Of a DNA stretch of 64,000 bases, positions 817 through 63,463 are shown piece after piece. The notes beneath the pieces were generated by a model. That model made no database searches. It was not told where the DNA came from and saw nothing but the letters and a program-made list of their open reading frames with translations. Position numbers and translations under genes: made by a program. Position 1 is the first letter of the stretch. Each line of letters begins with the position of its first letter. Source of the DNA: Thysanoteuthis rhombus (taxonomy: Eukaryota > Mollusca > Cephalopoda > Oegopsida > Thysanoteuthidae); assembly GCA_963457665.1 (NCBI GenBank), contig OY735207.1, forward strand, positions 59,659,613-59,723,612, written 5' to 3'.

Positions 817-897
817 ATTCTCTCTGCTGCTGCAGCTGCAGGTGTGAGTGTAGCTTTTGGCGCACCAGTTGGTGGTGTCCTCTTCAGCTTAGAAGAG
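817..897 (+). CDS. CLC gene 1 exon a (proton-glutamate helix)
   Basis: A polypyrimidine tract and CCCCAG acceptor precede the exon and GAG|gtaagt follows it. The 27 codons read [17 protein letters not shown] then [10 protein letters not shown], in phase 0 at both ends. The terminal glutamate pair aligns with the internal proton-transfer glutamate region of CLC exchangers (E203 of the E. coli protein, E268 of CLC-5). A glutamate here is the mark of an exchanger rather than a channel. This is the first exon of the gene inside the window. Confidence 0.95.
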
Positions 898-3074
898 GTA
901 AGTTACCGCTTCTAAACCTTTCATAATTTTTCAAGTTAATTACCTTGTGTTAAGATGTTTCAGTCCAGTAATGGAGAAACATCATTCTTTTATTAAAACA
1001 ACTAGCTGAAATAACCCGTTCTTTGGGCTGTTATCTCCATATAGCTGGGGATAACCACCCAGAGGACTGGTACAGTATTATTTGTTACTTCTGATGTCTG
1101 TTGGAAAATGCAATATAATTGATTTAAATTCTATGAATTCAATTCCAAGTGAATTTCTTCTAGTTTCTTTTAAGAAAATTTATGATTGATCTAAAAGTGT
1201 TTTCTGTAAATTTAGTATATTTTCATTTAAAACATGTACAAATTTCAACCACTGGCTTTCAAGGGCTTGTTTGGGGGGGAAAAAAAAATTAAGCATGTTC
1301 CTATTAATGTCTTTGTAAATCTTCATTGAAATTTTCATGTCAGTTTTTAGCATGTACTTAATGCACCTTTTTAATTGAAAATAAACCTATTTCATTTTTT
1401 CTTTTCCTTCTCTTCCAACCAGTTGAGCTATTATTTCCCTTTGAAAACGATGTGGCGTTCCTTCTTCTGTGCTTTGGCAGCTGCATTCGTTTTACGCTCA
1501 ATGAATCCATTTGGAAATGACCATTTGGTCATGTTTTATATCGACTATAATGAGCCATGGTACCTACAAGAATTGGCAGCATTTATTTTGATAGGTGCAA
1601 TGGGAGTAAGTAAAGCCTCTCTTTTTAATTCAAAGATTATACATAAAGCTATTAGACCAGAGATTTTGAAACTTTTTGTATTGGTGACACGCTAAAAAAA
1701 AAAAAAATGAAATCATTTTGTGTCACACAACCTGACTTCTTTTAGCCAAGCCAAATATATAATGTCATCCAAGCAGTTCAACTTACTCAAGAAAAGTATC
1801 CTTTGAAAAATATACAATGTTGTACTTAATTTTGCAACACACCTAGAAATTATATGCGACACACTAAAGTTTGGAAAGCTCTATATTAGGTAATTGTTCA
1901 AGAAGTTTCCCATTTCTTGTATGTATTAGCTTTTCTTCCTTATATCTGACTTGCATATACATTTTTCTCATTCTATAAAACAGTTCATTATCCAAAATAA
2001 TGAAAAATATGGGATGAATGAAAGTATATTTAAATAGTAATGCAAATTTATTTGTAAAATGAACAGAAAGCATTATCTTGTGTGTTCATATGTAATTTGA
2101 TCCACTTTCTTTCATAAATATATCTTCTATGGCAATTTTATAAGGTGCATTGAATAAGGGCATGTATGAGTTAACCAATTATAATCATCTGACAATTTGT
2201 ATTTTATGTGGTATGTTGTTTTATATTTGTCCTAATATAAACACACTTTGAACATATCTTTGTTTCATATTTGTCCTAATATAAACACACTTTGAACATA
2301 TCTTTGTTTCTTTTGTATTCTAAACAGTGTGATTTCTGCTTTATACTGACATCTGTGTATTGCACTTTTTTCAGGGCCTATATGGTACTTTCTTCAAAAA
2401 GATGAATATCATGTGGTGTAGGTACAGAAAAACTTCCAATCTCGGCAAGTACCCTATTGTTGAGGTGAGTAAGACTATTTTTATTTGATGGCAAATGTAT
2501 CTTGCAAACAATTTTATAGATATACTAATATACCTTGAATCATGCGGTCAATTTGTCCTGAAATCTTCCATACTGTTCAAAACTGCAATGTTCAACGTGT
2601 TATCATAATTTAATGCATTCTGCTTTTTTTATCAGCTCATAATTAATTACATTAAAAATATACTACATCATCAAACCTGCATTATAGGAGGTGTTCCTGC
2701 ATGTGACTTAGCATTTATCCATACATTCTTTATGCAAACTTTGGCCTTGATTAAAGTAATTAGTATGCTTAATGGGAAGGGTTGCATTTTAGAATCTGAT
2801 TGCCAAGTTCACTTCGTTCAGCTAGATTTTAGTGCTAGTTGACATAAGATCAAGAGTAGTAGAATCAGAATAGAAGTGACTGTTTTGTTTTAGTATAGTA
2901 ATAGTATGTAATGTGAAAAAAAGGTGGCACTCAGATTAACAAACATGACCATGTATATATATTTTACTAGGATGTTGCAAAAAATTATTGAGTATGGTCA
3001 AAATATCTACTTGATGTTTACATGTAGCATTCAATCGAAACCATCCAATAGTTTCAGAATTTTTAGGGGTACAA

Positions 3075-3116
<42 letters not shown>

Positions 3117-6100
3117 TATAATAACCTTCAAAATAAATAGAAATGTGGATTATTAAAAAAAAAAGACAGTGATTGCAAATTGTATTATGTTGCTTTCTTA
3201 CTCCAAGACAAAGTAACTCTAAATCAAAGCTATATTGACAGTGGAAGGAAAGCTTAATGTATCATTTTTTTCAAGTACAGCTAAAAAAATTCTAGTTTTA
3301 GTTACCCAGGGATTAAGCATTGTGGATCATTCACAATTAATTTCAAAACCAAATTTCAAGTTTTTCTTACTGAGAAGAATACCGGCTTAATTGTAAAATG
3401 TTCCTTGCCACACACTTTTTATCTTGAAATACCCTTTCAAAAATCATCCTGCATCTTGTTTTCTAATGATTGGGTTTGGGTAGGCCTTGGAGGAGAGCTC
3501 ACCAGTACTGGACTAACACCTAAACACTCTAGACAACTCTGGAATAGATGCATATTATTATAAATGATCGAATCATGACAGAAATTTTTTAAAAATATAA
3601 AGAAAAAACAATTTATGAAAAACTATTACCCAGAATCACATCATTGGATAGCCTTCCTTTATTTGTTTCCAGACATATACAGTGAAATACCGTATTTATC
3701 TACCATAGCAATTTTGTTCTTTACTGTTGAATATTGAAATCAAAAACCCATAAGATTATTACAAAACTTTGATGTGGTAGATATGAGACGGTCATTGTTG
3801 CTTGATGTTAACATCTTACATAATCAAAACCTGGTCTCATCAACTACCTCATGAAGGAGTTACAGTGCCTTATTGTGTATATTTTGTATTCATGTTGTAA
3901 ACAATTAAGAGACACATTGCTTCCTGCATTTACCATAAAAAATCAGGTAATAGTGGTAGATTGGAGGAAGAACATACTGGAATTTAATGAAATTGTCAAA
4001 TTTTATGACCTGTTGAGGAATGCTACTGATATATGTGTATATATATATGTGTATGTATACATATATATATGTATGTACACCTAAGCCTACAGTAGCCTAG
4101 ATTGCACCACTAACTTTTAAACCTCACAAGTCGATTGTCATAACATCAAAAAACAGAATATTCAGGTTGTGAGGTTCCTATGAGTGATATATATACATAA
4201 ACCGTTACTGCTTCAACAATGCTGTTGTATGTGAGCTTGCCTGTAAACCCCAAGCAAACTAGCCGTGCAAGTAAATTTGTATTTATAAGGTCGGTTTTTA
4301 TGTTGCCTAGGCCACTCGGCATATCTTCAAAAAGAGTTCCTACTAAAAAAAATGTCTTTATAGCTATCCTGTCAGATTAAATATCCATTTCTTCATGATA
4401 TAAAGAAGTTCAGTTGGAAAATATTCAGTAGGCTACAATCTTCGACCAAAACCCAATTATGGGAAGGACTACAAGTCTCATGGAAATTGTGGTTTTTTTT
4501 TAGTTTTTTTTCCTTTGATATTCCTTGTCAAATTATAGGTTTGTTTTATACCTTAGGAAATACAATAGTTGTATAATGTTGGATGTTAGACAGATTTTTC
4601 TATTCATTTTATAAACTTAGTGGTTATTTTTCCTGACAATTTTTATTTATTTGCAGGTCCTTGTTGTCACGTTTATCACAGCTCTGCTCAGTTTTCCAAA
4701 TCAGTATACCAGGTAATCATATTAAGAATTTTCTGTTTTTAGGTTACATCAGTGAAGAATTTTTTTAAAGTTCAATGAATTACAACACAAATCTTTGCTA
4801 AATTGGTCCCTTAATTTGTGTAGAGCTGCATTCAGGCGTGTTTTTTGAAAATTGAGACTTTTTTAATGATTACTGCCCCATAGAAGGTGAGAGAAGTAAC
4901 TCATTCATTGATTACCCCCTTTCCAACTGTTAATTGATTACTTTTACATGGCATGCTGCCAAAATACATCGGTCATGTGATGGTTTCTATCAAGTGACTA
5001 ACCCAACTTGTTTTGCTTGTTTTTGTTTCTTTGAGTTTTGGGTTTTTTTTCCATTCCTTTTATGCCATTTTTCTTTTTTTTTTCTTTTTTAGAATGAATT
5101 CCAGCGAATTAATCCGTCTTCTTGTTAATCGTTGCGGTCCAGAAGATTATCGAGAATTGTGGTTTGTAGAGTCATTTCAAATTTTTATTTCTTAGACAGG
5201 TTTTTAAAAGCACCTCTAGTGATCATGAGATAAAAGTTTATCATTGTTAAACTCGAGTCCAACTTGGGGCTGACTTTGTCTTCTCCCCCCCCCCCCCCCG
5301 GAACAACATTAACAACAGCCCTCACCAAAATAAACTCTTCACTATTTGTCCGCCCCATCATGTTAAACCTGTATATAAAATCCACCTTTCTTTACCATAA
5401 TTTGAAATCACAACTGTGATTGGAAGGCAGCTCTCTTACCAACTGTGCTAAACTAACAAGCCTTGTATACCTAGAATTGTTTTCATTATATATGCAATAC
5501 AAAACTGGCTGTAATCATCTTCAGTAACAGTGCAGTTTGACTCTACAGCAGCCAGCTTTGTTTTATTTTAGTATCAAGATTTTTTGTTTTTTGTTTTTTC
5601 CTTTTCCTTAAATCAATCTTAGATATTTATTGTCCTCTCCATGTATGAATGCAGTCAGTAATTCAAATCTTCACTTATAAACATAGATAAGTAGTTTCAT
5701 TTCTCCTTCATTATAATTGAGGGTGTAAAACATAGATCCTTTCTTTTTTTACTCACATCAATCATGGAAAGTGAGAATTCCAAGTAAAGAAAATAGGCTA
5801 TTATTATAAGAGCGTATTGACATTTATAAATAATACATTATGGCACTGCACATAACACTGTTGTATTCAAATTGTTTAGATTATTGCTTGAAATTTGAGC
5901 TTGAAAAAAAAAAATCACAGAAAACAACTACACTAGATATTTTGATAACTTAAATCCTATTATTGAACTCTTTTGACCAACTGAAATCATGAAGATAAGT
6001 TATTTGGGAGAATAAAATTTTGACTTCATCTATAGGGTGTGTGGAAAGAAGCTCCCTATTGGAAATTGGTAATAACTTTGTCTATTTGTTGATTGTTATT

Positions 6101-9100
6101 ACTTAATTAGCTTTATTTGGGACCATACAAAGGTAGAATTTGGCTGCATCGATATCTGTAATCATTTTAGTAAGACCATAACATTTTGAATGCTTTCCTC
6201 CTGTTGAGCTATCCTTGTGGTTTGGTGCGGTAGACCTCTTTCACCCACCCCGACAGGAAAAAGTCATAGGATGTAAGGTCAGGACTTAGTGCAGGCCATT
6301 CATTTCTTTTGGGGAGTCAATTCTCACCCACTGTGTATATAGAGAAGCATGATTCAATTTTAAAGGATTTTTTTCTTCCAAGGGGATTCATCTCTTGCTT
6401 CTATTCTCAAGAAAATTTGTTTATTGAAATTTTTGAGAGTGCAAAATGCTTAGAGGCAGGAGGAATTATTTGGGCTTTAGCTACAAAAAAAAAAAAAAAG
6501 ATTTTGCCCACTTTTTAAGAAATTTCTCATATGGACTCGTATCAAATGTTTCAATAATTTTTTTCCCCTAAATCCTAATTGTGTTTATTTAGATAACAAG
6601 ATGACCAATGTATGTATTTTCAAATTTATTCTAAAACTGTATCAATTGAATGAAGTTCTCCATGTTGGCAAAGGAAAAAGCACCCATCTTATAATTTCCA
6701 ATAATTCACCCCAATTTTCTACTCTTTTTTTTTTTTTTTTACAGTGATTACAATCGTAGTATTACCAATGTCAATATTTATGGTGGAAGTGCCGTCGCTG
6801 GGGATGGTGTCATCCGTGCAGTGTGGCAGTTAGTATTAGCTTTTCTATTCAAAGGCATTATCACTGTCTTTACATTCGGTTTGAAGGTAAGAGACAATTA
6901 CTTTTTTCTCTTTTATGCAATTAAATGATTGAAAGATGGTTTTCTATAGCAACATTCTACCTACTTATTTTTTTAGATGAAACATCATCAACTATTATTG
7001 ATTTTCGATCAGTATTTTCTTCTATCTTAATTTCAGTTGCTTTTTCATCTCAATTATTCATACCATCTATCAGTGGCTATGAGTATATAGCACAGAACAA
7101 AGGAAAGGATAAGTTCTTGGTGAGACTCTAATTCACTTTCTTTTTGCCACAAGGAAGCTTGTTTATGTATACCAGCTGAACTTATTGATTGAACTACTAG
7201 CGTAAAAATTTGAAGTCATTAAAAAAAAAATTCCATCAAAGAATAAATATGGTCAAAATAAATTCTATTTATGACATCACTGGGGAAACATCTACGATAA
7301 TTTATTTTAAAAAAAAAAAACCTAGATTCTGGAGAATTTAGGTGTTATTAATCAAAATAAGGCCCCATAAAGGTCAAAAACATTTTTTATCAAAATACTA
7401 TTTGTAGAAGGGGTTAAGTGGTTATTAGAAGGGGTTTACTGAGACCAATTTTCGAGGCTAGAAAAAAGACATCTTAGAAAAAATAAATCAAGATAATTTT
7501 GCTGCTACTGATACTACTGGTATAGAAACAATAACAAAATATGGCACCTAGAGATTGCAGAGAAAATGAAGGGTACATTTTCAGTGGTCTGATTTAATCT
7601 TCAGTCATCTGTGGGGTTCTCAGAGCTCATTCAGTAAGAATAGCTGGTATGGATGGCAAGGTTTCTCTAAGGCAATAGGGATGAGAGTTTGTGTCTCACT
7701 GAGAGCTTATCCTTAATTTTTGATATGCACTATATACTCACTTCTGATGGAAAGCTACCAAAATTGAATATACTAGTTAAAAATGATAGTTTTCAGGTGT
7801 AAATCAGTGTAGGATTGCTATTCATAAGTGACTAAGGGCAGCTTCCTTTGGACCGAGAACATTCACACATTTGCTATTTATATTTCTGGTTGTTCACTAT
7901 ATGTTTGTATGAGGTTATCTCAGAAATGTATGCATTTAATTTATTTGTTCATGTTTTTATTTCAGTGGAAAAAAAAATGTTGAAACCCAAATCTGTTATC
8001 AATTTCCAAGGCAAATATTCAGAAAAGGCAAAGATGTTATAGATTGATAAAGTGTGTTTGTGTGTGTGTGTGTATGTGAGAGAGTGAGAGAGAGAGAGAG
8101 AGATTGATTAAATGAATTTTATATTCAAAGGGAACTACTTATTTTAATCACTTTGAGACCAGATCTTAGATAACAGTAACTGACTTATAACATTGAGTAA
8201 TGGATATAAAATTGGAATAATTTATATTTGTGATAAATTTAAACCTATTCTGTGAAATATTATACTATTAATGGAAGGATGTTGTTTTACAGCTATTGGT
8301 TGAGGGAGGAATTTTTTTTTTTTTTTTTTAATTTAAAAAATGTATATATCCATCTCTATAGTTTGGGGGGGGGGAGTTTGAGATTCTAGAGATATTGTGA
8401 GGGGGGGCAGAGCACTGATGCAAGTTCATTTTTAACAAAACATTTGGAACTAAGCAAGAATTATTCAAGTGGACCTTGGAAAAAAACAAATTTGAAAGCA
8501 ACAAGGAAGAGAAGACTTCATTTTAGCTCACTCTCTGTTTTTATGAATTTACATTCATTGTCATAAATTCGTTATAAATAATTTTGCATTATAAAACGAT
8601 TAATGAAATTTATTTACTTCAATTGATTTTTAATTCATTTTTTAAAAAGTCTCTAAGACCAATTGATTTTGATAACAATAACTGCTTGAAAGCATTATTT
8701 GTGATTATAAGAAATGGCTTCCTCTATATTTTGTTTATAGCAAACAAGCTGGAACATTTTTTTGTAAAATGATTTTTAATAAACTTTTCCTTGTCAAATA
8801 AAGATTATAATTCCATCAAAACTAATTCCCTGTATCTTATCGTACAGGTTCCCTGTGGTCTGTTCATCCCCAGCATGGCTGTTGGTGCTATTATGGGACG
8901 TATCGTTGGTATTGGTGTAGAGCAATTGGTTGTGTTAGTATCACCCAAACATTTGAACCTTTTTTTGTTTCTTTTTCTTCTGCTATTATACATTATATTT
9001 CCTTTGTTTTATTTGTTGTAAGTTTTGTGCCAATAGTCTTTGCAGTGGTGGCGCTAAGTCTAACTGCACACCCTGGCAAATTTATTTTAGTTTTTTTTTT

Positions 9101-12100
9101 CTAAATTGGTTTGTTTTATATAAGGAGAAATGTAATTGAGTAAGTGGAAAAATGGAGTCCTTTTTAAGCAGCCTCAGTTTGATAATAGGTGTTATAAACT
9201 CTGAGATATGGGAAGCAACTTAGCTATGCTTCGTTAATAGGAGTGGTTTACTTTTGCTTAGTGAATGACTCTTCTTTTCCATGGTTCTTTTCCATGGTTC
9301 TTTTTATGTGACTATTGGGTTCAAGTTGGATTAGATATGCTTCCTATTTAATGATTTTTTAACTTTTGAAAGGGTCTCCCTACTAAATTTTTTTGTATCA
9401 TTATTACAACACAATGAGTATACTGAATACAAAGTTTGGTTGCAATACATGAAAATAATGAGAAAAACTTAATCAGTTTTGCAGACAGAAAGATACAATA
9501 TGACTTACTTCTTTTGGTGATTGGCACAATTTGTACTGCTTCAATCTTTTATTGATATAATTATTTTCTATCCAGAGATCGATCATCTTAATCTTTGGCT
9601 AAAACTTCTTATCCCCTGCTACCACAATCAATTCATTTGTATAATTTTATATTAGATATTGATTTATTAAAGTTATACAGAAAAAAATGTTCATTATTTT
9701 TTTATTTAAAAAATTCTAAGTGTAACCTGTATAAACATCTCAAATCGTTCATTTTGGGCTCAATGTTGAATCTTTAAGAGTATTCATAAAAAAATATCCA
9801 ATGTTTATCAAAGAAAATTTGCATGAATAACTTATTCACAAAATGAATATTGTATTTTTGCTATTTGTGTTATTTTCTAACCTAACTTTTTGAATGAATA
9901 AATGTATGGTTAAATTTAATAATCATTTTCAGTAAAATTCCTTCAAATGAGAAATTGCAGCAACTCTTGTATTTTAGGTTCTTTAACTAAATTTTAATTA
10001 CTGTAGCTACAACAGATTTTTCCTTCATAGGCTCTTATTAAAGGAATATTCTTAATTCTTCACACTTTTATTTTTTTTCTACTGCGTATGATGGTATACA
10101 TTACAGACATTTGAATTTTTTTTTTTTTTAAACTATGCAAATATTTCACTGCATCCAATGCAGTGGTATTTTGACTTTGAGGTCACCTACTGGAGCTTGA
10201 TACAGACAGCTATGGGGCTTGGATGAGTTGTCAGGGAGTGGTAGTCCTGCAAATACTTTTGTTAACCATTTGTTTTATATTTTAGCATACGTAGTAATAT
10301 TGCCTCGTCTGTCTAAAAATGAATCACTGTAGCCAAGTTGTTTTATTTTTCTCAAAATCCCCCCCTCCCCCGTAAGTTCTTATCTCTCTCTCGTTCAAGA
10401 CTTTACTAACCCACTTACCTTATCCTGACTATTCGGATAGTGATACAAAGTTACCAGAACGATACATGACATGACTAAATCAAAGGTATTGACCAACTAA
10501 AGTTATCAGTTTGAAGATGATGGGTGTAAGAGAACTAGGATATAATTTTTTTTTTTTTTTTTTTTTTTCCAAACTAAAATTCAATCATATACTCTCCCCT
10601 ATCCCTCTTTCATTCCAACCAAGCTTTTCCAAATATACCTAAACATCATAAATACTATGTCATGGCAGAGGCAAAGTAAGTGTACATTTTACAATGGATT
10701 ATTATTGTTAATTGAGCAACTGCTGAAAACAAGTGGAAAAGACAAATTTTTTAAAAAATGAAAAAGAATGTTTTTAGCAGATGGCTACTGGACTCTACAT
10801 GGAAATTTACAAGATTTTATGCCAAAAATGTGACCAAGAGCACTGAAATAAAGACAGAAAAGTAAAAAGGGAAGAATACCTCTAGCCTATATTTGTTTTT
10901 GTTATTTGGTTAGGTCTGTGATCGTGGCTATGGTGATTCATTAAGAAAAAAATGTTATTTCTAAATTAGACTATTGTAATAATTTTTGTTCTAATTGGCT
11001 TTTTACTTGCATTTATATCCATCAGGGCTTATCGTGATTCCTGGTTTTTCTCCAATATGTGCACAGCTCAAGAAATGTGCACTGTAACCCCTGGCTTATA
11101 TGCCATGGTTGGTGCTGCTGCAGTTTTGGGAGGTGTTACAAGGATGACAGGTGAATAAATTTTATTCCTTATTTCTATAGATTTTTGTATGAGATCTTAT
11201 GTTTCATTAGAAAGGATATAAAGGACAAGAATTTTCTCATTGTAATACACTCTGATTCTTACTGCTGCATGATCTTTGTAGGTCTTAATGAATCAGGAAT
11301 TAGAATTACTAGAATTGAGCCTCCTTTTAAAATTTAATTCTTGGAATTTTTTTTTTTTTTCAATGATGTTCTTGAGCAATGATTTTCTCAGTTCCTAACC
11401 ACTTTATAGATTATAAGAATGACACTCTCTTTTCAAATTATTTTCTCATCAAAAAAAAGTATCAATTTGGTTTACAAGATAAGATTTGTCATAAGCCATA
11501 CCAAAAGTCTGAAAAAGTGAAGACTGCAGTTTAGGAATATTTTCTTCCAAATCTGTTGAATTTTTGCAATATTATCAAAAAAAAAAGAAACTCTTCCATA
11601 TTAGAACAAATCATGTAGAAATGAAATAAATTATTTGACTAAGCAAAAGCTGTTACATCAAATATCGAGAACGTGATTAAAATAGAAAGTTTTGAGCTTT
11701 TACTTTCATCTTGAATTTAGAAAGATTGTTCAAATGCATTTCATTTGTGGGATTATTTTTAAAATTTACCCAAATGAATGTTAATGATTTTTATCTTTTT
11801 TCTCTCTCCCACCTTAGTGTCTTTGGTTGTGGTGATGTTTGAGTTGACAGGTGGACTATTATATATTGTACCTATGATGGCTGCAGTAATGACCAGTAAA
11901 TGGGTTGGCGATGCACTTGGTCGAGAAGGAATGTATCCTTTTTCACTTTGCTATTTTCTTGAGTAACTTATTGAAATTATTACTTGTTATATTCTAACCT
12001 TACGGAAAAATTTTCTTTTGAATTATCCACAAGATACATCTGCCATTGTCAAATATATTTTATGTAGTTTGTTCACAGATAAAAACTCTTCCAAAATTGT

Positions 12101-15100
12101 TTTTTACAATCCCAAGTATGGTCTCAGACACGATTTTATTTAAATGCAGAGTTTCACCTTCATCATTCCTTTTTACTTGATATATTCTTTTTTGGATTAG
12201 GTGACTTCTTAGATTATATTCTTTATATATGCTCGCTATCTTCTTCTTTGAACACGTTTTCTCTTTTAATCTTATAGGTTATAACAGGGTACACTAGATA
12301 ATTGAGAGCAAGTTACTAAAAAACAAAGATATTCAATAGAAAAAAAAACAGTATATTTTCTTGAAAATTGATACACATCTTCAACTAGATATGAAAAGAA
12401 AACATTAATCAATAAAACCAGCCTCAGCTTCAAAGTCAGCCTTGATGTGACCTTGGAAATAACCACCTGCCTGGATCAGGCGGATCTTGTTCATGTTGGC
12501 CATTATATCCACCATGGTGGCTTTCAGCAAGTCCTTTGTATTGTGGGGCTGCTGGTTGGGTTCCTTCTTAACAATGCCCCAAAACATAACAGTCCAGGGA
12601 TTCAAATCAACTGAGCTTGGTGGTTTCAACTGGATCATATGGTTCACCTTGGGCTTGTCAGACATAAACTGCCCCACATAGAACTTGTACCTGGTGTCCT
12701 CTTTGACCACGCTGCCTTGAACAACTTGCTGGGGGTCACCACTGATGATGTCCTGGGTCATTCTGACAGTCTGACTGCTGAAAATGTTTCTTTCTCTTGG
12801 CCACATTCAAGAAGCTGGTCTCTGAGTCAATGATATTGGTGGGTAGAGACCTTAGCATGGTGTGCCATAATGAGTCATAATTTGGCACATGTAGTGTAAT
12901 ATTGTTTTGTCATCTTCCCATTTATGGCCCACTAAGGTTGTTCTTGAATTCTTGCATTCCATTGCTAATGAATTCAGTTCTCACTGGGCACCTTGATAAT
13001 TTAGTCTTATGCCAGACTAGACTAAGCTATTATTATTTTACTCTTTGCTTTACTGTATTTGGTTATTGTTGCTTTCTAATGCAACACTTGTCCAACGTCT
13101 GTTCATGTTGACAATTATGTTTATTGTTATTTGATTATTTCAAAAACATTTCAAGTTATCAGCTGCCTTATGTGTCAGCATTGTGTGATTTTCCTTAAGT
13201 CTCCTTTTAGCTATGATGCTCATATACGATTGAATGGGTATCCGTATTTAGACAGCAAAGAAGAGTTCACACACACAACTATGGCAGCAGACGTCATGCG
13301 GCCACGGTAAGTGTTTTCACTCGAGTCTCAATGTGTAAAATTGATTACATGTTATATTATTTACTTGATACTATATATTGGAAGAGTTATGGTGGGTTTT
13401 TTCAGCTTGCTAACAATATTAACTTTCTTTTGTTTCAGAATTTTTCTCTGCTTTTTTTTTTTTTTACCTAAAAGGAAGAAAAATGAGACAAAAATTAATT
13501 AATATCATTAGGATTCTTACCTTTTCTTCATTTTTCTTCTCCTGAACATGTTTAATTTTGAATTATAAAATTAGTTTTTGAAATTGTTTCCACAAAAATT
13601 TCTTTGATTGCATTACCTTTCCTACACATGAAGGAAGATCTCTCCAAAAAGTATCTATTGCAAAAGAACCTTTATTTTCATGATTCTTTTAATGTTTTTT
13701 TTTCATCAAGAAGTGTACTTTGTCCAAGCTAACAGCAGATCCAAAATAAAGTCAAGTTTTGAAATCGACCCAAAACTTTGTATATAATACATTGGTCCTT
13801 GGCTGCCTAAACAATATCTATATAAGAAACAACCATAAGGTTTTCTATTAAGAACAAATAATCAACAGTGAAGAATGTCTGACACAATTCTATGAAATGT
13901 TCAATAACCTGAACAAGTTAATGGATGATTTATCTCTTATAACTTACGCCTTTAGATCCTTTTTGAAATTATAGAATTTTTGTTCATCTGTAAGTAAATC
14001 TCTTTTGGATTCAGCCTTTTTTTTTTTTCTCTTTTCCCATATTCGTAATACAATTATAGAAAGGTGTTTTTGAAATAGTATTCACCAATTTTTTAAGCGT
14101 TAGGAAAATTTTACAATACAAATGTTTTATTGACAAATGGTGGAGAAGTTTAAACTCCTAATTTAGAGTGTGCAAAAATTTAAAATGAAATTCTGGTTTT
14201 CATCTGTGTTCAGTCTCCTGTTTTAGAAGGAAGATTTCTGGGATCTTTTGCTCACCTTGTACTTCCCTATCAACTAAATACCAAATTTTTGATCCAAGGA
14301 AAGCAGAGAATCCATCTGTGATTGGAATGATATTTTAAATCAAAATATTTACTGAGATTTTGTAATTTTTTTTCTAATCTCTCCTCTTTCAAGGGACCAT
14401 ATGTATTGTTTTCCCTGAAAAAAAAATGAATCAATTTCATTCACTGATTACTTAGAATGATATTTTCCTGAAAATTCTATAAGAAAATGAATGTATATAA
14501 ATGGGAGAGCATGATGATGTTAATAATACAGCATGATGATAATAATAGTAATACAGAAGTCCCCCTTCATAACATGAGTGTTGGGATCCAAGAAAGACAA
14601 CTGCGTTATAACTTGACTGCAAATATCATAAGTCAATTACAAATGCTAAATCAAGTTCATTGGTGAACAAATATGTTGCTTTCATCTCAAAATCAAAGAA
14701 ATTATGTGTAAAACACTGAAATTTGTTGATTGATTTCAAATAGAAAACATTTAATATTTTAATCTAATCAAACCTTTTGATGGAATTCTTTTTTTATTTG
14801 TGGTTTTCTGGACAAGCAGTTGATAATATCGTGTCCACCACCCACCCACCTTGTATAGTGGACCGCACTATATTGAGGGGTGCCTGTAATTAAAAACTTT
14901 TCATAATTGTGGGTGGGGATCCAAAGTAGATCTATAGACTATGAACATTTAGAAAAAAGTACAGGGAGAGGAAAATGTGAAATTGGAGAGAAAAGAAAAC
15001 ATTTCATCAATTATTTTTTTCTTCCATGCAAAGGTACTGGAGATATGGACTAGGCGTGTAAGTCTTGTATTTTCTGCTACATCTACCCCTCTCGTTCTGC

Positions 15101-17615: not shown

Positions 17616-20600
17616 TAAGGTTTCTGAGACTGGTGGGATATGTATGTCTATTACATCTCTTTTAGAAGTCTACTGGTACATTCTAAATCAGGTATTTAGC
17701 ACCTTGATAGATTAGTCTTGAAAGGGTTGAAACATTTTTTTTTATACCTATTTAATTTGGAAATTGTTTGCATTTATTTCAAATCCTGATACGTCTTTGA
17801 ACTTTTAGCTACTATGTTCTACGTATTGTACATGTTTTTAAAACACATCATCTGGACACAAATATTTCTCCAACTTTCTTACCAACAGATTCTTATTGTA
17901 TTCATGTCTTAATTTCTTCAGTGTTGTCATTATCTTCATCAACAGTTTTCCTTCTTGTCTTATGTCAATGGTAACTTTGTTAAGGGAAGAAAATGGGTGT
18001 ATGTTACTATATTTATTGTATTTAGTTATTGTCCTGTTTTTTATTGTTTTTTATGGTTGATTGTCATGCCTCTTTTTTTTTTCTCCTTCTTTATGCAAAC
18101 TTTCTGTGGTAATTTTTTGTTTCTTCATTCTTGTATGAAGAGAAATTAAATTCTCTGCATTATTGCTTTTCTAATGATTCATTTGAAATGGACAGTTCAG
18201 GAATCCTAATCTCATATGTATAAAGAAGAAAGTCCCAGACAAAGACTCTTCTCTGGGTTTTGTCAGAAGAGAACACCAGTCTCTAAAATCCAAAAGATAC
18301 ACAATCAGGTAGAGAATCCAATTGTAAAATATATTCTCCAAAAGGCTTGTACAACTTTAGTTTGCAACTAATTTTGTTAAGTATACAGACATATTTTACC
18401 TCAGACTGCATTGTTATATAACTGATAATTCATCAAAACTAAACATTTGCTACACACTATAATTATAGAAACATGTCTATCAAAGCATTGGGCTAAAAGA
18501 TAAGTAAACATTGTGATCTATTATTTTCAATTTTTGAATTTTCTCTCATCCTGAATTTTTTTCTGTTGCTCTTATTTGCAACTATACTCAGGCTGTTGAT
18601 CTGCTGAAAAATAAAACAAATAGTTAATAAAACGAAGATGCTATTGAAATGATGAACTAATCCCACAAGCAGTCTTTTTAGGTTTATGAAAGATGCATTT
18701 TTTTTTGTTTTTTTTCAAAAATGAATACTTTTTATTCCATATCCTTCATATAAAAAGCTGAACATGAAACTGCTTAATTTTTTTCCTGTAATCTTCAAAA
18801 TGCATCCTCCTCCTTCATACATCTAAATATTCCTATGTTTGTTAATTTGTTTTCTTTCAATAATCATTGAATGATTTCTCTGTCTGCTACTGTTACATCA
18901 CTTTCTATATTCTTTCTGAGAGAATCAAGTTGCTTCTCTTTTTTTTCCTCCGGGCTTAGATTCTGTGAAAAATGCTCATTATAATTTGTCAATCTGTTTT
19001 AAACTGTTATCTTGTCTGTACGTGCTTTTAGAATCCATTCCCCATAGACGACATAATGAGTGATTCAATGAATGATTTGCATGATGCAGTCCAATTAAAT
19101 GCAATAGAACAATGAAATTTTGTTGTAAAGAAAAAAGACAATTGTCATTGCAATCGTTTGAGGTCTTTGTTTTGAATTTTTCTCTTTTCACTTAGTTACT
19201 CCCCCTCCCTTGTAACTCTTATATCTTTTTGTTTTTCTCACTATCTCTTTTTTTTCCCTTATTAGAACTGCCTGCTCTCTCTCTCTCTCTGTAGCATGGT
19301 CTTGTGTCCTGTTTTAAACTACTTTCCTTCTTGATCTGATAATGTTTTTATTGGCATGCCTACCTATACCGAGAACATTCTACATTCAGAAGATTGCATT
19401 TTTGAGACTCTGACTTACAGACAAAAAGATAGAAATTTGCAATTTTATTTTCTCTCCCCCACCACCTTTTCTTTTTCGTTGGATTATCATTAATCTCCTC
19501 TGTTCATTGCTTATTCAGTAATGATTTGCTTATTAATGTTTTCCTTTTAGAACACAATCCCTTGTAGTATTGGCCGTGTGTATATTCATTTTAATCCCAG
19601 TCATTTACTCCCTTGTAGGATTGTTAATATCTATTTTTCCTCAGGATTCTTTACTAAGAATGGTATAAACATGATGAAAATTTATTACTTGAAATCTCAT
19701 CAACTGTTAGTGTGAGAAAGTTTCTTCTCTCTATTTATGATAATCTCTGCTCATTTTTATATATTCCTGCAATGATATGTCAAACTACTGCTATTATTCT
19801 GGACCAAAGATTGAAACAAGAAATTTTGATAAAGTTACTCAATTTATTTTTGTAATAAAGTCATATGTTACCATTCATGGGTGTCTACTGCAGTTTTTCT
19901 AGTGAGGAGCAAAAAGATATATTGTAAGAAAGGGGGGGTTAGATGCGGATGTTGGTTGTCAGGTAAAGGACTAGAGAGTGCCTAAACTGTGACACTTCCT
20001 CAGCTGTCATTATTTATAGTGACCCATTGATCCCCAGCCTCTATAAGGTTCCAAATTTCAAACCACCTTGCCCTTGGGAAAAAGGCCAGATCCAAGGAGA
20101 GCAACTGCCTCATTTGCACCAGACCATTATCCCTTCTTCGCATTTAAGATTTTAGAACTTTTTCCATAAATTGTTATCTTTAAATCTAAATGTGATATCA
20201 AATCAATATGGTCTGCTCTTGGAATCGGTTCCTCTATTGAGGAAAAAGGTTAATTCCTGACTGAGAAATGATTTGCACAGTATACTATGATTTATCTGAA
20301 AATCACTAGCGTCTGTGGTTAGATAAAATTTTATGTAAGATGTTTTTAAAAATGCTTATATACTTAAATGTTTTGGGTATGCACTGGGTGAGTTGAGTTG
20401 GTATTTCTCAAAAGCCAGCTATTTGCAATGTAATGTCAAATTAGAATTCAGATTATTTACACAGAAAAGAATGGAACGTTTTAAATGTTTCATGTTCAAG
20501 TTACAGGGAATGTTTTCTTAGTTCTGGCATTCTCAACGGGGAGGTGATATCATCCCCATAGAGGGTGAGAGTCAAGCTGGGAGGGAGCAATAGATTGTCA

Positions 20601-23141: not shown

Positions 23142-26100
23142 GCCCCCCACCCCGTTTTTTGTTTCTATGTAACACTCTGTGTGGTTGGAGTTTCATTTTG
23201 TTTGAAACAATTTTTTCATGTGTTTTGTCTGGCTAGTGATGGTAAGTATAACAACAAAAGATAAAAACAACCACAGTATACATAATGACCTGTTGATGCA
23301 GCTTTTACTCAGTATGAATTATCTTCTAGATGGAATTTCTCATTGGTTTAATCTTAGGATGCATTTTGTATCCTATGATAACTGTTATTAAGTTCAATAG
23401 TCTGGGAGACATTTCCTAGCATTTTGTTTTTGTTTTATTTTTTTTTTAATTTAAATCAAAACTGACAATAATTTGGAGAGCTGTGATTGACTAGCATGGT
23501 TAAAAAAAATGACAGAATTAGTTATGTTTGAATAAATTCTGGATCGGTGCAACACACTTTATTGGCCCTCATCTCCTTCCATTTGACTTTGTGCCATACT
23601 ATGTAGTGGATGTAAATGTGTCAGGCAAGTGAGTAAAATAGGCAGCAGTTGTTAGAGCTGCACCTGCTTCTTTTTGGTTATTTGCAAACTTTTAACTTGA
23701 TTTTATTCAATATTCAAAGGTTGGCTCTTCAGATTCGCAACTTACCTCCAGGTCAGACATTTGAATCCTGCTTTGGTTTCATTAATTTTGTATATCCGTT
23801 TGCTCAAGCATGACAGAAACCAAAAAAGAGACTAAAATGTGATTTCTTTTATATCGTAAGATAGATGAGCTTGAGTTAATTAATTTATTAAATCAGAAAA
23901 CCGCAGGATAATCGTGAAATTCAGAGTTGAATCTCAATTGGTCAAATAATCACCAACCAAACTGTCATTCAATTTTAATTTTTTAATTTTTTTTTTTTGC
24001 TACTTGCAATTTTAAAATAGATATTTCAAATTCAGATACATCTCCCATCAAAGCATTTTCATAAGATTTTGATTGATAATTATTGCAAAATAATCTAATG
24101 TATAAGATATGTTATCAATCTTTCATAAATTTTCCATACTTGAATTATTGGTATTAAATTTTTCATTTTTAATGTTTTTATTCCCTCTGATTGAAAAGAT
24201 CAAGAACGTAAAAGAAAACAAAAATGTTTTGTTTTTTTTAACACGCCTTAGAATCATTCAGGGAATTTTATAATCATTTTTTTTTCCCTTGATGAATTCA
24301 AGAGACTTAATGAGGTTTCTTTTAATTTGCATCCATCTGGTCATCTGTCTACTTGGTCCATTGAAACAAATATCTTTTATGAGTCATACATTCGAAATGT
24401 GTTTGATCTTTTTAAAAATTGAAATTTCATTTTAATTCATCTGAAAATTTTCATTTTAGCAATTGATTTGAGTATTGTTGAACTCTGAATGTTATGTGAA
24501 CATTTCTGCTTTATGTACATATTTTCAATTGATTTCTTCATGATTGCCTCCGATTCAAAAAAAGATGAAAGTCAATTGTTAATTGTAAGAAATCTGTGAA
24601 TATCTGGATATATGACGCCATCATACAAGGTTTTCTTCTCAGTCTGTTTATACTTATTTTCTCATACCATTGTATCACTAAAAGAACAATTCAAATGATT
24701 CTCTAATCTCTCTGCTACAGTGATGTATGGTGGTTATTGTGGCAGGGTGTTGAACCTCCTTCTCCAAATGTGTAGTTGGAGGGGGGTCTATTTCAAAATA
24801 CTCCCTGGGTTCTCAATGAAGAGGTTGGAGGCAAAAGCTTTATAAATAATAGTTCACCTATTGCATTTCTATTGGCCAAATCTCACAGTCAGAGGGGGCC
24901 TTTCAAGAAGCAAACCCTCCCCAGAATTTCTATAAGAAAAAAAAAAGAGGAACTTGAAACTATTCATACTTTGGACATATTACTAATTGCAGCTGATATG
25001 AATTGTCATGTATGAATATATGAACTGAATCTCTCTCAAATTGAATAATAAAATAAATAAATTTTATCTTCTGCATAAATTTTAGAATAAAAGCACGAAA
25101 TTATTTTATCTTTTTTTTTTAGTTTTTTTTTTTTTTTCAAATGGGAGGGTGAAGTCAGTCACATTATTCTGTCTGTCTGTCCAGATAATTTTACTTATTT
25201 AATTTAGTTGTACATCAATTTCACAATCAGCAATATTTCTTAATAGAAATTTGTTCTTTTTGAAACAGCTCAGAAGGAAAGATATCTTATTATTCAATGT
25301 GATTTGTCCGAAAATGTTATGCAAAATATCATGTTCCATTGTTTACAAGTTCACAAGACAAAATTCACCAGTTTTGTACATTAGACACAATTTTGATGAT
25401 AGTTTCACCAATCACTAGTCTTATGAATTGCACAAGATTATCCTAATAAAATCAACATGTTTACAAATTCCAGGCATTTCTATCAACATATGTAACCTTA
25501 TCAAGAGTTACAAAAAAAACATAGTGAGGATCTTTGACAATGAGTTGTCCAAGGACAAAAGTGAATTTTCAGTAGGAGGCTCCCCATTCAGCCTTGCTTT
25601 CATTTGTCCAATATTTGTATGTTTCTAAGCTTTGACAGTTTAGAGAAAAGAAGAAGAAAAAAAGTTCCTATGGAAAGCATACAAAACTTTTCATTCTTAA
25701 ATGGAGTCATTAGCAATATAACTGGATAATAACGAGTGTGTTTATCACATTAAAACTACAAAGCATAAAGATTCATATTCAGAGACAGAAATGTATATTT
25801 CTTCTCTATAAATGCTGATAAATTCATCAATTTTTGTTTAATCTATTTCATAACATTTTTGTTCTCCAAATCTAAATATCACTCACCCTTCTCCATTCTG
25901 ACCAACAGTATATTGTTTTTTTTTCTTTTAGGCGCAATGATCCACCTCTCTGTGTTATAACGCAGGACTCTATGACTGTGGAAGAAATAGGTAAGACATC
26001 ATCGTATTTTCATTCTAGGAACATGAAAGATGCTTAGTTTTATGCATTTAAACAGAGGCACAGTAACATCCAACCACCCACACCCATTTTTGAAGATTAT

Positions 26101-35062: not shown

Positions 35063-35750
35063 CAACCAGTGTTATTATCAATTTTTGACTAGTATTTTCT
35101 TTCATCTTAATTTTATAGTTGCATTTTATTGCAATTCTACTGGAGCCATCAACCTATGGCAGTGAATTAAGATGAAAGAAATTACTTGTCAAAAATTAAC
35201 AATAATAATGGTTGACAATTCTTTGTGTGTGTATATATGTATATATATATGTATGTGTACACACATATATATGCACACATACAAATTCATACAAACAAGT
35301 TTCATTTTTGTATAATTTTCATTGAATGAAGCATTTTCAACCAGTGTTATTATCAATTTTTGACTAGTATTTTCTTTCGTTTTAATTTTTGGTTGCTTTT
35401 TATCAAAATTTACTCAGGCCATCAACCTACGATAGTGAGTAAATTAAGATGAAAGAAATTACTTGTCAAAAATTAACAATAATAATGGTTGATAATTCTT
35501 CATATATATATATAAATATATATAACACACATACAAGTTCATACAGACAAGTTTCATTCTTATTTTATTTCTTTTAAATGAAGCATTTTCAACCAGTATC
35601 ATTATCAATTTTTGACTTGTATTTTCTGTCATCTCAATTTCATGGTTGTTTTATTGCAATTTACTCAGGCCATCAATTTACTGTAATGAGTGTATTAAGA
35701 TGAAAGAAATTATAAGTCAAAAGTTAATAATAATAATGGTTGACAATTCT
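35063..35750 (+). repeat. three tandem family C palindromic units
   Basis: Units begin at 35063, 35339 and 35590 (spacings 276 and 251 bp). Each has a left arm (CAACCAGTGTTATTATCAAT then TTTTGACTAGTATTTTCTTT and CATCTTAATT) and a right arm that is its near-perfect reverse complement (AATTAAGATGAAAGAAATTA then CTTGTCAAAAATTAAC and AATAATAATGGTTG). Arms of about 45 nt surround a loop of about 60-70 nt containing ACTCAGGCCATCAA. Each unit could form a long hairpin. Units are separated by short TA/CA-rich spacers. Confidence 0.8.
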
Positions 35751-35858
35751 TCATCTAATAAAAATATTGCAATGAGGATCATTTATCTTTTTAGGCAACT
35801 CTCTCCTGAACCCTACCAACCCACTTATTTCTTGAACTCTTTTGGCAGAATTCAAATT

Positions 35859-44439: not shown

Positions 44440-45570
44440 CAATCAATTAAAGGGCTTCCTAGAAATTAAGCCATGAGAACTGAAACAAGCCATCAAACGA
44501 ACAAAAAAAGGAAATGCACCTGGACCTGATGACATAACCATTAATTTACTCAAAAGAGCTGGTAAAATCATCAATAGGAAACTAGGCATTTTATTCATGT
44601 TATGCTTAAAACAAAGTAAAGTCCCAGAAGATTGAAGCACTGCAATCATTATGCTGTCACATGAAAAGGAAACCCGAAAGATCTCAACAACTACAGACTA
44701 ATACTTCTATTGAACTACAACCTTTTCACCTAAGTTATCACAAAAACGTTAGACAAAAACCAACCACAAGAACCAGCTTGCTTTAGAAGAAGCTACTCAA
44801 CCATTGACTATCTCCATTCAGTAAACCAACTGGAAGAGGAAGCAGTGGAATATAAAATGCCCCTAGCAGTAGCATTCATAGAATTCAAGAAGGCTTTCAA
44901 CTCAGCATCAATGACATTTGTAATTTCTGCTATCACGTGACAAGGTGTAGACCCAGTACACCTCAGTGTTACATCACAAATACTATCCCAGTAGCTCCTT
45001 TATCAGGCTAAATAAAGACTCAGATCTGTTTCAGCTCCAAAAAAGGGAAAGACAAAGTGATACCAGCTCACCCAAACTCTTTTCAGCCTGCCTCAAGATG
45101 ATTTTCAGAAATCTACAATGGGAATACAAAGGAATCAGAAAAGACAGCGAATACCTGAGTAACCTCAGATTTGTGGACATCATCATCCTTTTTACAGGGA
45201 GCCTCCATAACCTCCAACTAATGCTAGATGAACTATATGAAGAAAACAAGAAAGCTGGCCTCCACATGAACTTCAGTAAAACAAAGATCATGCACAACCA
45301 ATATGTCACAAACAAACACTCTGCAATCAAAATCAAAAACGCAAAGTTGGACAAAGTAGTCCAATACATCTAGTGAGGACAACAAGTCTCCATGACATCC
45401 TTAAAAGAAGAAAAAAAAAAGCAAAGAATCACTGGGGGGGATGGCAAGTCTTCGATAGAGCAAACTCAACCTTAAAGAATAAGAAAATCCCATTAGGGCA
45501 AAGTCAGGATATATATATGTCAGAATACATTAATAACCTATACCTGGCAACGGTTTAAATCGGTCGGTTA
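44440..45570 (+). mobile_element. RTE-type LINE, reverse-transcriptase domain fragment
   Basis: The plus strand encodes KKGNAPGPDDITINLLKRAG and KVPED, a stop-ridden finger region, a degenerate F-x-E-F-K-K-A-F motif, then an open 135-codon stretch (44966-45373) with TSSPKLFSACLKMIFRNLQW, LRFVDIIILFTGS and KKAGLHMNFSKTKIMHN. These are RT motifs of the RTE clade. The catalytic F-A-D-D has become F-V-D-I, so the protein would be inactive. Distinct from the 3' fragment at 42540-43165. Confidence 0.85.
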
Positions 45571-52080: not shown

Positions 52081-52084
52081 TAGA

Positions 52085-54565: not shown

Positions 54566-55688
54566 AACAATTGAATTATCAATACTTTACTTCTATATAC
54601 AAGTACATAATATATGTGATAGAAATATTGTATACTACATAAACATAATTTATTGGTAGATACCACTTTATCTCATATTTGATTGTGCACAAATGTAAGT
54701 ACAATAGCTGGTACTTAAAAAAACTAGGTCAGTAGTTGGTCAAATTTTGGTATGGAGAAAAAAAAGTAGGTCAGTAATCAGTCAAAATCTTGGTCAAAAC
54801 TAAGTCAAACTATATAGCTTGATGTTAAGGCTAAAAACCTCATTGGGAGCAAAAATTGGAGTCTTACATATAATCTGGTTGTATAAATCACAAAACATGA
54901 GATTTGATAAAAAAAAAAAGTTTCAAGACAAGACATATCCAAGAATGAGAACTAAGTTCTTGATTTTTATATTTCTTGATTCCCAACCATAACCCAGTTT
55001 TGACCTAGTTTATCCTTTTTTTTTTTTTCTTTTACACCAAGTCAGTAGTTGGTCAAGGTGTATCAAAAGTAGGTCAGTCAATCACTATGGTATGTATTTT
55101 TGCTATAACATTGGTCAACAACAAAGTTTCATCAGGTATGTGTTCTGGTGCACTTGAAGTTCTGAATGCTGATTCCAGAAAGGTAATCCATTTTCTTGTA
55201 TCACAGGTAGTTTTCATGATGAGTTGAAAGCTTTTTATAACATATAACCCATATAGAGCATCATAGAGACTCAAAAGCTGAAGTCTTATCGAGCACCATA
55301 GAGAGTACAGAGCTCAAGCCTTATCTTTTTATCTCTTATACATCATTATTTTCATTTCTAAAATTAAAAAGTTCTGACATATAAATCTTGCTTTCATTTA
55401 ATTTTCACCTATATTGTCTCATATACAGTGGAAGTAAAAACAGAACATGTCTGTTGCAAAAAAGTGAGACATACTAAAGTGAAACGGACTTAGAATTTGT
55501 AATCTGCTTCAAAAATTGATTTCACAAATTTGTATAGTGACCTTGATGAAAAAAATTTCAATCTTGTTGACTAGAATTTAAGGCATTAAAATTTTGTAAT
55601 AACCTTCGATGACCCTAATTTCTTCTACTTCACACAGGGCATATTTCTTTAAGCTTTTTGTTCCTCCTCTTTTGTTTCTCCCTTTCAG

Positions 55689-55901
55689 GAGCCACCATAA
55701 TGGATACGGAAGATATTCCTTCGGGAATAGGACAATATGATGATTTCCACACAATCGACTGGTTGCGAGATATCGCTCGGGATCGCATGCGATATCGTAA
55801 TATGGTTGAAAGAACACAGGAAGGTTTTTTGCAGAGAATGAAAAAAGCCCATGATGCCTGGTCTGGATGGGTGTGTGCCTTATTAGTTGGTATGGGGGCT
55901 G
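55689..55901 (+). CDS. CLC gene 2 first visible coding exon
   Basis: The acceptor is tccctttcag. An ATG at 55700-55702 sits in a good context (A at -3, G at +4) and could be the start: MDTEDIPSGIGQYDDFHTID and so on. The frame is open upstream to the acceptor, so an earlier start in another exon is possible, as vertebrate CLCN3 has longer N-termini. The cytoplasmic tail is highly charged (RDIARDRMRYRNMVER) and leads to DAWSGW and the helix VCALLVGMGAG. The donor is CTG|gtaggt in phase 1. No acidic dileucine signal is in this exon. Confidence 0.93.
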
Positions 55902-55932
55902 GTAGGTTTTAATTATTGCTTTCTTGTTTTCT

Positions 55933-55967
<35 letters not shown>

Positions 55968-61900: not shown

Positions 61901-63463
61901 CTAAAAAAAGTCTGAATTTTCTAAAAGTGGACACAAACTAAGGAATGAATTTAGCATAAACTCACGTTTCAAACTGGACCGCCTTTCTAAAAAAAAAGTT
62001 TTTTGTAGGCATGATAAAAAGTAAATGTTGAAATTTTCATCCCTCTAGTTCTATTGGTGTGGTCTGTATGTGGGATACATGCATATGTAGGCAACCGAGC
62101 TTGAAAACTGAAGAAACTTAAGTTAATTTTCGGTTGACGGTTTCTAAGAGTAGTTTGTGATCATTTTTATAATGTGCTACCAAATATTCTGTTCATTTTT
62201 TGTGTCTCTTATTTTATTGTTTATGCACATGTATTAACAATTGTTTTATAATTACTAATTGTCTGTCAGGCAACATATGTTTCATTCTTTCCTTCATTCA
62301 TTCTATCTGTGTAGGTCTGTTGGCTGGATGGATTTTCATTACTACCACATGGATGTCAGACTTGAAGGAAGGTATTTGTGTCAATGCCTTCTGGTTAAGC
62401 CGCGATCAATGCTGCTGGGGAGCTAATGACACAAATTATCAAGAGTTTGGTGATTGTGCACAGGTAATACACCTAATTATGATGTCATACATAATGTAGT
62501 TATGATTTTTCCTTCATACCTATGTTTCATTGTCCTGAAACAAATGTTTTTGAACAATAAAGTGATTAAACTATTGATTGATTGGAATTGTATATATAGC
62601 CTTACTTCATTGATCATTCCACAAATGTTTTCACTTTAAAGTTATCAAAGAATCAAAAAAAATTAAGATTGTTTAGAAATTGCAATAAAGCACAAGAGTA
62701 AATGGAGAATTTAATAATTTCATCATCATCATCATCATCATGTCTGTTAACATACATTGTTGGATATAGACCTTCCCCAAGATTCACCATTTGTCTCTAT
62801 TATGCATTTTGCAGAGCCAAAATTTCCTGAATTTATCTAGCTTGTCACGCCATCTTACTTTGTGTCATCCATAGCTATGCACCTGATCTCTGGAGATCTA
62901 TGCTGTGAGACGTGATATCCAGCGGTTGTTTGACATTCTTACAACACGTCCAGCCCATTGCCATTTGAGTTTTCTGACAGTTTCTATGATGTCTCGGACT
63001 CCTGTCTTTTCTCCAATATACTATGCTGTCTTATGATCTCTCCATGTGAAGTTGAGCATAATTCTTTCAGTACTAAGATGCAGAATGATTCTTTAGGACA
63101 TTTTTCAGACACAGAGGAAAGACATAGTAGCAAGTGGATACTGTGGTGGGTGCAGTGGTTGTCTGGAGGAATCACAGCAACTCAGAAGATTTTCTCTGTT
63201 GGTCAGTTCCAGATTTTTAATATCAGGGACTTGGTCTGTTTTTGCTGAGATCCAAGCACTGCCCAGTTGGATCACTGAGATTTGAATACCCCCCAATTGA
63301 GTTTCTGAACACTGTCCAGAACAGCCAGAATCATGCGGGAACTTTTCCATCTGTGTCACTTATCAATATGCTGTAAAAAGTAGATGGCCAGTATTTATAA
63401 CAAATCCAGAGTCAACAACTAGGTAATCAGGGATAATGGTTCGGGAAGACAAATGGGTCCAGA
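55689..63463 (+). CDS. second CLC-3/4/5-type exchanger, N-terminal part (2 exons, continues past window)
   Basis: Exons 55689-55901 and 62315-62463 join in phase to an N-terminal segment with the family motif Y-D-D-F-H-T-I-D-W, then D-A-W-S-G-W opening the first membrane helix, a D-L-K-E-G-I-C loop and Q-C-C-W-G-x-N. These match the start of animal CLC-3/4/5. GSGIP and GKEGP motifs should follow beyond the right edge. The orientation is the same as gene 1, whose stop lies 23.8 kb upstream. It may be a tandem paralogue of gene 1, or the true 5' half of the same gene placed after its 3' half by assembly error. Sequence outside the window is needed to decide. Confidence 0.93.
56111..56345 (+). 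mobile_element. family B element, 5' half
   Basis: TTAGAAACCATTAACCAAAA then CTGCTGACATAGCTTTCTTT, GGCTGGCTATGTATGTGTCA and TAAGTTTATGCTAAATTG match the left half of other copies. It lies 200 bp into the first visible intron of CLC gene 2. Confidence 0.65.
56659..57144 (-). other. unassigned 161-codon ORF, probably not a gene
   Basis: This is the longest open frame in the window but its residue pattern has no recognised domain, no strong start context and no splice partners. A G13 run at about 56945 accounts for a proline run. On the other strand 56740-56790 has a CTGATGAAGAT...GATGAAACATG motif of the kind found in dispersed repeats. It is listed so that it is not mistaken for a gene. Confidence 0.5.
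58163..58686. mobile_element. hAT-like non-autonomous element
   Basis: The left end CAATGGTTCCTGACCACAGG and right end AGGTTGGGAACCACTG are inverted repeats of the CAGTGGTTCCCAACC type common in hAT elements. Flanks GTCCATAA and ATCTAAAA share five of eight bases, weakly consistent with an 8-bp target duplication. The 524-bp interior has no transposase. Confidence 0.6.
58760..58880 (+). mobile_element. short remnant with a Penelope-type terminal motif
   Basis: AAGGACTGGAAGATGGATTG then ACCGAAATGTTGTGTTAACA resembles the motif at 60448-60490 and 34526-34565. Only the motif is recognisable. Confidence 0.35.
60165..60600 (+). mobile_element. Penelope-like element, C-terminal GIY-YIG fragment and 3' end
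   Basis: The 140-codon ORF from 60169 reads GKHFPLCEEVYIIERERCSK then LGKIKEAAHINMSTEF and FNRVGNPG. This resembles the end of the GIY-YIG endonuclease domain of Penelope-like polyproteins (I-x-E-R-E-x-x-W-x-x-R-K-I-K-E-A-x-x-I, then N-x-x-x-N-P). About 80 nt later ACACCTGAAGAAGGCCATAG then CGACCGAAAAATGATTATTA is the type of motif seen near Penelope ends. The reverse transcriptase is absent: 5' truncated. Confidence 0.6.
60826..61255 (+). mobile_element. mariner-like relic, copy 1 of an adjacent pair
   Basis: CGCCTGTCCGTAAAGTATCC near the start looks like a terminal repeat. The rest, from TGATGTAACTCGGCAACCAA to GACAAGTGGAGGGGCACTTG, aligns block by block with 61256-61670. Many stops. Confidence 0.6.
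61256..61670 (+). mobile_element. mariner-like relic, copy 2 of an adjacent pair
   Basis: In shifting frames: FLAKHQ, then SPDLASHDVWLFPK near 61468-61510, then TMDEIKENVTKQLMANLKED and DKWNGC. These match the mariner-type end (F-L-A-K-H, S-P-D-L-A-P-x-D-F-W-L-F-P-K, a T-I-x-x-I-K-E-N block and a W-x-x-R-W-x-x-C block). Better preserved than copy 1. The adjacent family B copy starts 100 bp later. Confidence 0.7.
61770..62146 (-). mobile_element. family B element, minus strand
   Basis: Plus-strand ends TAGAAACCATCAAGCAACC (61781) and CGGTTGACGGTTTCTAA (to 62147) are imperfect inverted repeats. GGCAGCATACCATGTAAGAG and GGGCAGTGTTCACTAAAAAA match other copies in reverse. The element lies 170 bp before exon 62315. 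Confidence 0.7.
62315..62463 (+). CDS. CLC gene 2 second visible coding exon
   Basis: The acceptor is tctgtgtag. The exon completes a glycine codon and reads LLAGWIFITTTWMSDLKEGI then CVNAFWLSRDQCCWGANDTN and YQEFGDCAQ, ending CAG|gtaata in phase 0. W-M-x-D-L-K-E-G-I-C and Q-C-C-W-G-x-N-x-T are CLC-3/4/5 hallmarks of the helix B-C region. The N-D-T sequon matches the luminal glycosylation region of the family. Confidence 0.95.
62715..63115 (-). mobile_element. RTE-type LINE 3' end with (CAT)n tail, minus strand
   Basis: The body matches 48590-48900 (ACATTGTTGGATATAGACCT, CTCTGGAGATCTATG, CAGCCCATTGCCATTTGAGT and TGATCTCTCCATGTGAAGTT). The left end is a (CAT)7-type run at 62721-62741, which on the element strand is a 3' (ATG)n tail, as expected for RTE retroposons. 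Confidence 0.75.

Follow-up and report, generated by a model that had tools for sequence, protein, structure and literature searches.

Two genes of the CLC-3/4/5 type, here called gene 1 and gene 2, were found head to tail on the + strand of one contig of the squid Thysanoteuthis rhombus. The genome measures 2.73 Gb and is divided into 514 contigs; the window, by which we mean the whole stretch of 64 000 bases that was analysed, occupies C10:59659613-59723612. Its edges cut both genes, leaving the 5' part of gene 1 and the 3' part of gene 2 outside. Flanks of 200 kb from the same contig were joined to the window and the two halves of the resulting 264 000 bases were compared; no N letters were present in the joined sequence.

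An initial annotation of the window alone had reported a C-terminal CLC part (the last 506 residues) followed by an N-terminal CLC part (about 120 residues) in the same orientation and without overlap, and had proposed either a tandem pair of paralogues or a single gene whose 5' half had been placed behind its 3' half. The order of the parts and their common + strand were both seen in the gene models. Exons 1–4 of gene 1 (726 nt, 242 codons) were located in the 20 kb preceding base 1, on the + strand and in order. Numbered from the window start they span -20013 to -411, which leaves 506 of the 748 codons inside the window, the count first reported. Exons 3–19 of gene 2 were located at 65326–95500, in the first 32 kb past base 64000, with the order and the + strand again kept; its two exons inside the window amounted to 351 nt or 117 codons. 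The window parts of the two genes shared no protein stretch, and no later exon of gene 2 lay in the window. The end of the feature had been placed at 63463, where no exon stops, the last exon of gene 2 in the window stopping at 62463. As the missing exons were found in both flanks, N-terminal ones upstream of base 1 and C-terminal ones downstream of 64000, the reading as tandem paralogues is supported, whereas that of a permuted assembly is refuted.

The locus thus holds two complete, collinear and adjacent copies on the same strand, and we regard it, with a probability of about 0.95, as an old head-to-tail tandem duplication of a CLC-3/4/5-type gene that has been assembled correctly. This settles the assembly question: both genes are real, and a gene model that fused or permuted the two halves would be wrong.

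Each gene comprised 19 coding exons with no in-frame stop, giving 748 codons for gene 1 and 745 codons for gene 2 before the stop codon. The models were built by maximizing the similarity between the copies, using a script that required AG/GT borders and equal intron phase; exons 18 and 19 were set by reading the sequence directly. Independent support for the models was provided by the equal length of 16 of the 19 exons in the two copies and by the end-to-end match of the gene 1 protein to human CLC-3.

Inside the window, all on the + strand, the model of gene 1 ran from exon 5 (817–897), which is bounded by AG/GT, is in phase and holds the proton-glutamate region, through exon 6 (1423–1605, 82.7 % identical in DNA to the matching exon region of gene 2), exon 7 (2375–2464), exon 8 (4657–4712), exon 9 (5093–5161) and exon 10 (6745–6886) to exon 11 (8848–8933). 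The last of these carries the putative third anion-site motif. Exons 12 (11026–11150), 13 (11818–11932) and 14 (13211–13306) were followed, beyond a long intron, by exons 15 (25932–25990), 16 (26760–26867) and 17 (29092–29216). Exon 18 (30692–30786) lies within the last CBS stretch, and exon 19 with the stop codon (31773–31863) is followed by a probable 3' untranslated region (UTR) at 31864–32209. The gene 2 model began at the ATG of exon 1 (55700–55901) and continued with exon 2 (62315–62463). A pyrimidine stretch and AG resembling a splice acceptor were present within 15 bases before both ATGs (AG at 55687–55688 in gene 2 and at -20029 to -20028 in gene 1), and an untranslated upstream 5' UTR exon is therefore likely in both genes.

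Divergence of the two copies

The predicted proteins were identical at 572 of 744 aligned residues (76.9 %) and the coding DNA was 79 % identical. Two methods gave a dS (synonymous substitutions per site) of 0.85–0.88 alongside a dN (the non-synonymous equivalent) of 0.13, i.e. a pairwise dN/dS of about 0.15, and 157 of 255 fourfold sites (62 %) were identical between the copies. The DNA identity of individual exons ranged from 69 to 90 %; none exceeded 90.1 %, and 17 of the 19 fell between 69 and 84 %. Identity was raised towards the 3' end, where exon 19 reached 90 % and the probable 3' UTR (31864–32209 versus 95501–95826) 87 % (278 of 319 aligned bases), higher than 18 of the 19 coding exons.

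Introns were compared by blastn (-25000 to 35000 versus 50000 to 100000, + strand rows with E up to 1e-4), which gave 36 rows, those that matched in several places or out of order being taken as repeats. With the repeat rows set aside, the introns aligned only at one block in intron 14 and in short stretches near the 3' end. Intron 14 itself measured 12 625 bases in one gene and 4711 in the other.

In a relative-rate test against human CLC-3 (740 sites), gene 1 showed 23 unique changes and gene 2 showed 70, about three times as many (p = 1.1e-6). Gene 2 was nevertheless rejected as a pseudogene, being free of stops and showing the low pairwise dN/dS given above.

Allelic copies from uncollapsed haplotypes, assembled in tandem, would also appear as adjacent copies with near-identical exon structure. 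A dS of 0.85–0.88, however, lies far above any allelic level, the introns align, repeats apart, only at the intron-14 block and at short stretches near the 3' end, and intron lengths are unequal, as in intron 14, making such an origin extremely improbable. No more credible is a single gene with its 5' half placed behind its 3' half by the assembler: the two parts do not overlap inside the window alone, but exons 1–19 all occur in two distinct versions, 77 % identical in protein, and the region is without N. The dS of about 0.85 together with this protein identity excludes both allelic copies and an assembler-split gene. Some points weigh against the interpretation of the locus as set out here. 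The AG/GT borders and equal intron phase, being demanded by the model-building script, are not independent evidence; the relative-rate test rests on one distant outgroup; and, as regards the intron-14 block treated below, exon 19 and the 3' UTR also stand above the rest of the aligned sequence, which would fit some local gene conversion.

Family assignment and pore residues

Both predicted proteins contained a full-length Voltage_CLC domain (287.9 and 276.8 bits against a Pfam cut-off of 24.8) and two C-terminal CBS stretches well over the Pfam cut-off; with the CLC-3 match that follows, this puts their homology to the family far beyond chance. The gene 1 protein matched human CLC-3 with 1168.6 bits, residues 2–748 aligning with 73–818, the next values being 236.8 bits for the best-scoring long chain of another subfamily (CLC-2) and 266.9 bits for a CBS fragment of CLC-5. 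For gene 2, of which 137 residues were compared, CLC-3 scored 245.3 bits and the next match 114.9. The closest solved relative was therefore CLC-3, well above CLC-1, CLC-2, CLC-6, CLC-7 and CLC-K, which places both genes in the CLC-3/4/5 group.

In ungapped comparison with human CLC-3 (PDB 9dnw), gene 1 was identical at 505 and gene 2 at 458 of 740 aligned residues. The squid copies, which are tandem neighbours, were closer to each other (569 of 740) than to the human protein. Vertebrate CLC-3, CLC-4 and CLC-5 are products of the vertebrate genome duplications; given the greater mutual likeness of the squid copies, the pair probably arose by a duplication of its own, apart from the vertebrate one. 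No earlier report of a CLC-3 duplication in cephalopods or molluscs was present among the literature matches listed.

The residues expected of a Cl-/H+ exchanger were kept in both predicted proteins. The motif GxEGP, whose glutamate we take to be the gating glutamate, reads GKEGP in gene 1 and GNEGP in gene 2, and FSLEE, the region presumed to hold the proton glutamate, occurs in both with both glutamates. The gating glutamate, the proton glutamate and the two CBS stretches are thus features that the squid copies have in common with the vertebrate 2Cl-/H+ exchangers CLC-3, CLC-4 and CLC-5. Since these are retained, both copies are predicted to work as voltage-dependent endolysosomal Cl-/H+ exchangers, either as homodimers or as mixed dimers.

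Two pore motifs differed between the copies. Gene 1 keeps GSGIPE and GKEGP, which are signature motifs for the anion pathway, whereas two of the unique changes of gene 2 fall here, the proline being replaced by alanine (GSGIAE) and the lysine by asparagine (GNEGP). The lysine position varies in the wider family, as exons of two more distant CLC genes of the same genome (on contig C32, see below) read GPEGP. An excerpt of a study of bovine CLC-K describes the backbone amide of the residue at this position as helping to coordinate anions at the external site (PMC9726985). The two replacements may somewhat alter the anion pathway of the gene 2 protein, and we infer that gene 2 encodes a modified exchanger that still works and may take part in mixed dimers. 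If its pore is modified in this way, the pair would offer a natural test of the role of the conserved proline and lysine in the exchanger.

A near-identical block in intron 14

The block in intron 14 occupies 18838–19249 in gene 1, and its partner in gene 2 lies outside the window at 84978–85388 (blastn; no strand assigned). Over 412 columns the copies showed 14 differences, one of them a gap, and were therefore 96.6 % identical, more alike than any coding exon. Identical runs extended to 146 bases, with another of 75 bases; given 14 differences, the longest run has p = 0.029. At the identity observed at fourfold sites (157/255), the probability of at least 398 identical columns out of 412 would be 9e-65. 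The left edge of the block is abrupt, and on the right homology tails off over about 25 bases. Just upstream of the gene 2 block lies a decayed partial copy of 47 bp with 83 % identity. A search of the 2.73-Gb genome returned two full copies and one weak 65-bp match; as this DNA search skips very common words, it does not by itself prove that the block is rare.

Each of the six frames contains stops in both copies. The longest stretch without a stop, 70 codons on the - strand, is shared by the two, but an equally long frame was found in 469 of 2000 base-shuffled blocks and the copies differ at four residues within it, so that it is likely to be a chance frame and was not counted as coding. No Rfam family was detected at the gathering threshold in the window, including the block. 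A structured RNA was rejected on this account, the block also folding no better than shuffled sequences (z-scores +0.89 and +1.32). An editing hairpin formed with nearby exons was also rejected, as no inverted match in either gene was better than E 0.014 or longer than 29 bases. An octamer-like word (ATTTGCAT) occurs once in the parts identical in both copies, and the word ACAAT occurs there twice; short words of this kind are weak evidence.

The likeliest reading of these features is a strongly constrained noncoding element acting as an enhancer or in splicing control, with gene conversion next. Both genes would then have kept the same element in intron 14 from before the duplication, as an intronic enhancer or a splicing-control sequence. 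Intron sequence that greatly exceeds its flanking coding exons in likeness is also a feature of ultraconserved and other conserved noncoding elements, although the present comparison is of two paralogues within one genome and not of different species. For coleoid cephalopods, 1187 candidate conserved noncoding elements are given in an excerpt of one report (PMC9023564).

Recent gene conversion between the copies, as opposed to constraint, has a lesser but appreciable chance of accounting for the likeness. It would fit the abrupt left edge (the right one fades) and the above-average identity of exon 19 (90 %) and the 3' UTR (87 %). It would, however, have to be almost confined to a 412-bp intron block kilobases away from the exons, none of which exceeds the 90.1 % noted above, and the differences are so placed as to leave the two long identical runs (146 and 75 bases). 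The 47-bp partial copy beside the gene 2 block, moreover, has decayed as expected of sequence without constraint. A little less probable again is that the block serves as an alternative (poison) exon or a splicing regulator, inclusion of which would cut the protein short ahead of the CBS domains. In both copies a pyrimidine-rich stretch is followed by AG (TTTTTCCTCCGGGCTTAG in gene 1) and, 58 bases on, by a possible donor (CTGTACGT), and reading on in the phase of exon 14 would meet a stop within the insert (judged by eye); but the donor fits only five of eight consensus positions and the near-identical block runs well past the putative exon. A mobile element inserted twice, to which the abrupt left edge might also point, is very improbable, as the search of the 2.73-Gb genome gave no full copies beyond these two, which lie in the same intron in the same orientation; a high-copy element could be undercounted by that search, but it did detect this block.

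If the block is a constrained noncoding element under selection, it would be an unusual case of a noncoding element under tighter constraint than its host transporter gene, and the presence of two copies in one genome would allow each to be tested separately. Taking the two genes together, we tentatively suggest, while thinking it rather doubtful, that gene 2 supplies a pore-modified subunit which pairs with the conserved copy, and that a shared programme is held through the ultraconserved intron-14 element while the coding sequences have drifted to 79 % identity.

Other CLC genes and neighbouring sequence

When the gene 1 protein was compared with the genome, 33 of 43 exon matches fell in the pair described here, and the other 10, on contigs C1, C2, C9 and C32, were 31–47 % identical. 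Pfam gave 18 exon matches in the genome, comprising four in this pair, seven on C32, three on C9 and four on C1; for large families such counts are lower bounds. No third CLC-3/4/5 gene was found in these searches with the gene 1 protein and Pfam, and as far as found the genome appears to hold a single tandem pair of this type.

The remaining matches with coordinates lay on C32 at 33.565–33.580 Mb and 40.646–40.721 Mb, on C9 at 48.94 Mb and on C1 at 63.96–64.01 Mb. They apparently represent genes of the CLC-6/CLC-7 class, which also looks duplicated in this genome: C32 has two of them, separated by about 7 Mb, while C9 and C1 have a single one each. Single exons from the 33.57-Mb gene of C32, from C9 and from C1 each fitted human CLC-6/CLC-7 better than CLC-3. 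A second exon of the 33.57-Mb gene had plant CLC-a as its best match and does not separate the classes. The exons of the other C32 gene (40.646–40.721 Mb) read like those of the first. These genes are, like the tandem pair, CLC members with Pfam Voltage_CLC exons, but exon by exon they are only 31–47 % identical to gene 1.

Two further features were observed between the genes of the pair. A tandem repeat with a 252-bp unit in 2.8 copies occupies 35013–35752 of the window, and a fragment of a reverse transcriptase (RVT_1, 29.3 bits, just below the cut-off of 29.6) was detected at 44951–45373, the sole find when 10 of the 644 listed ORFs were scanned with Pfam.

Elsewhere in the assembly, mitochondrial sequence was observed on contigs C198 and C514. 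COX1 matches on C198 lay at 10313, 17488, 30857 and 38032 (the last partial), with spacings of 7175, 13 369 and 7175, which corresponds to COX1 twice per period of 20 544 bases and to a mitochondrial sequence apparently repeated on one contig. This arrangement most likely marks the source as an oegopsid squid; a mitogenome of 20 851 bp with a duplicated cox1 is described for one oegopsid in an excerpt of PMC7800340.

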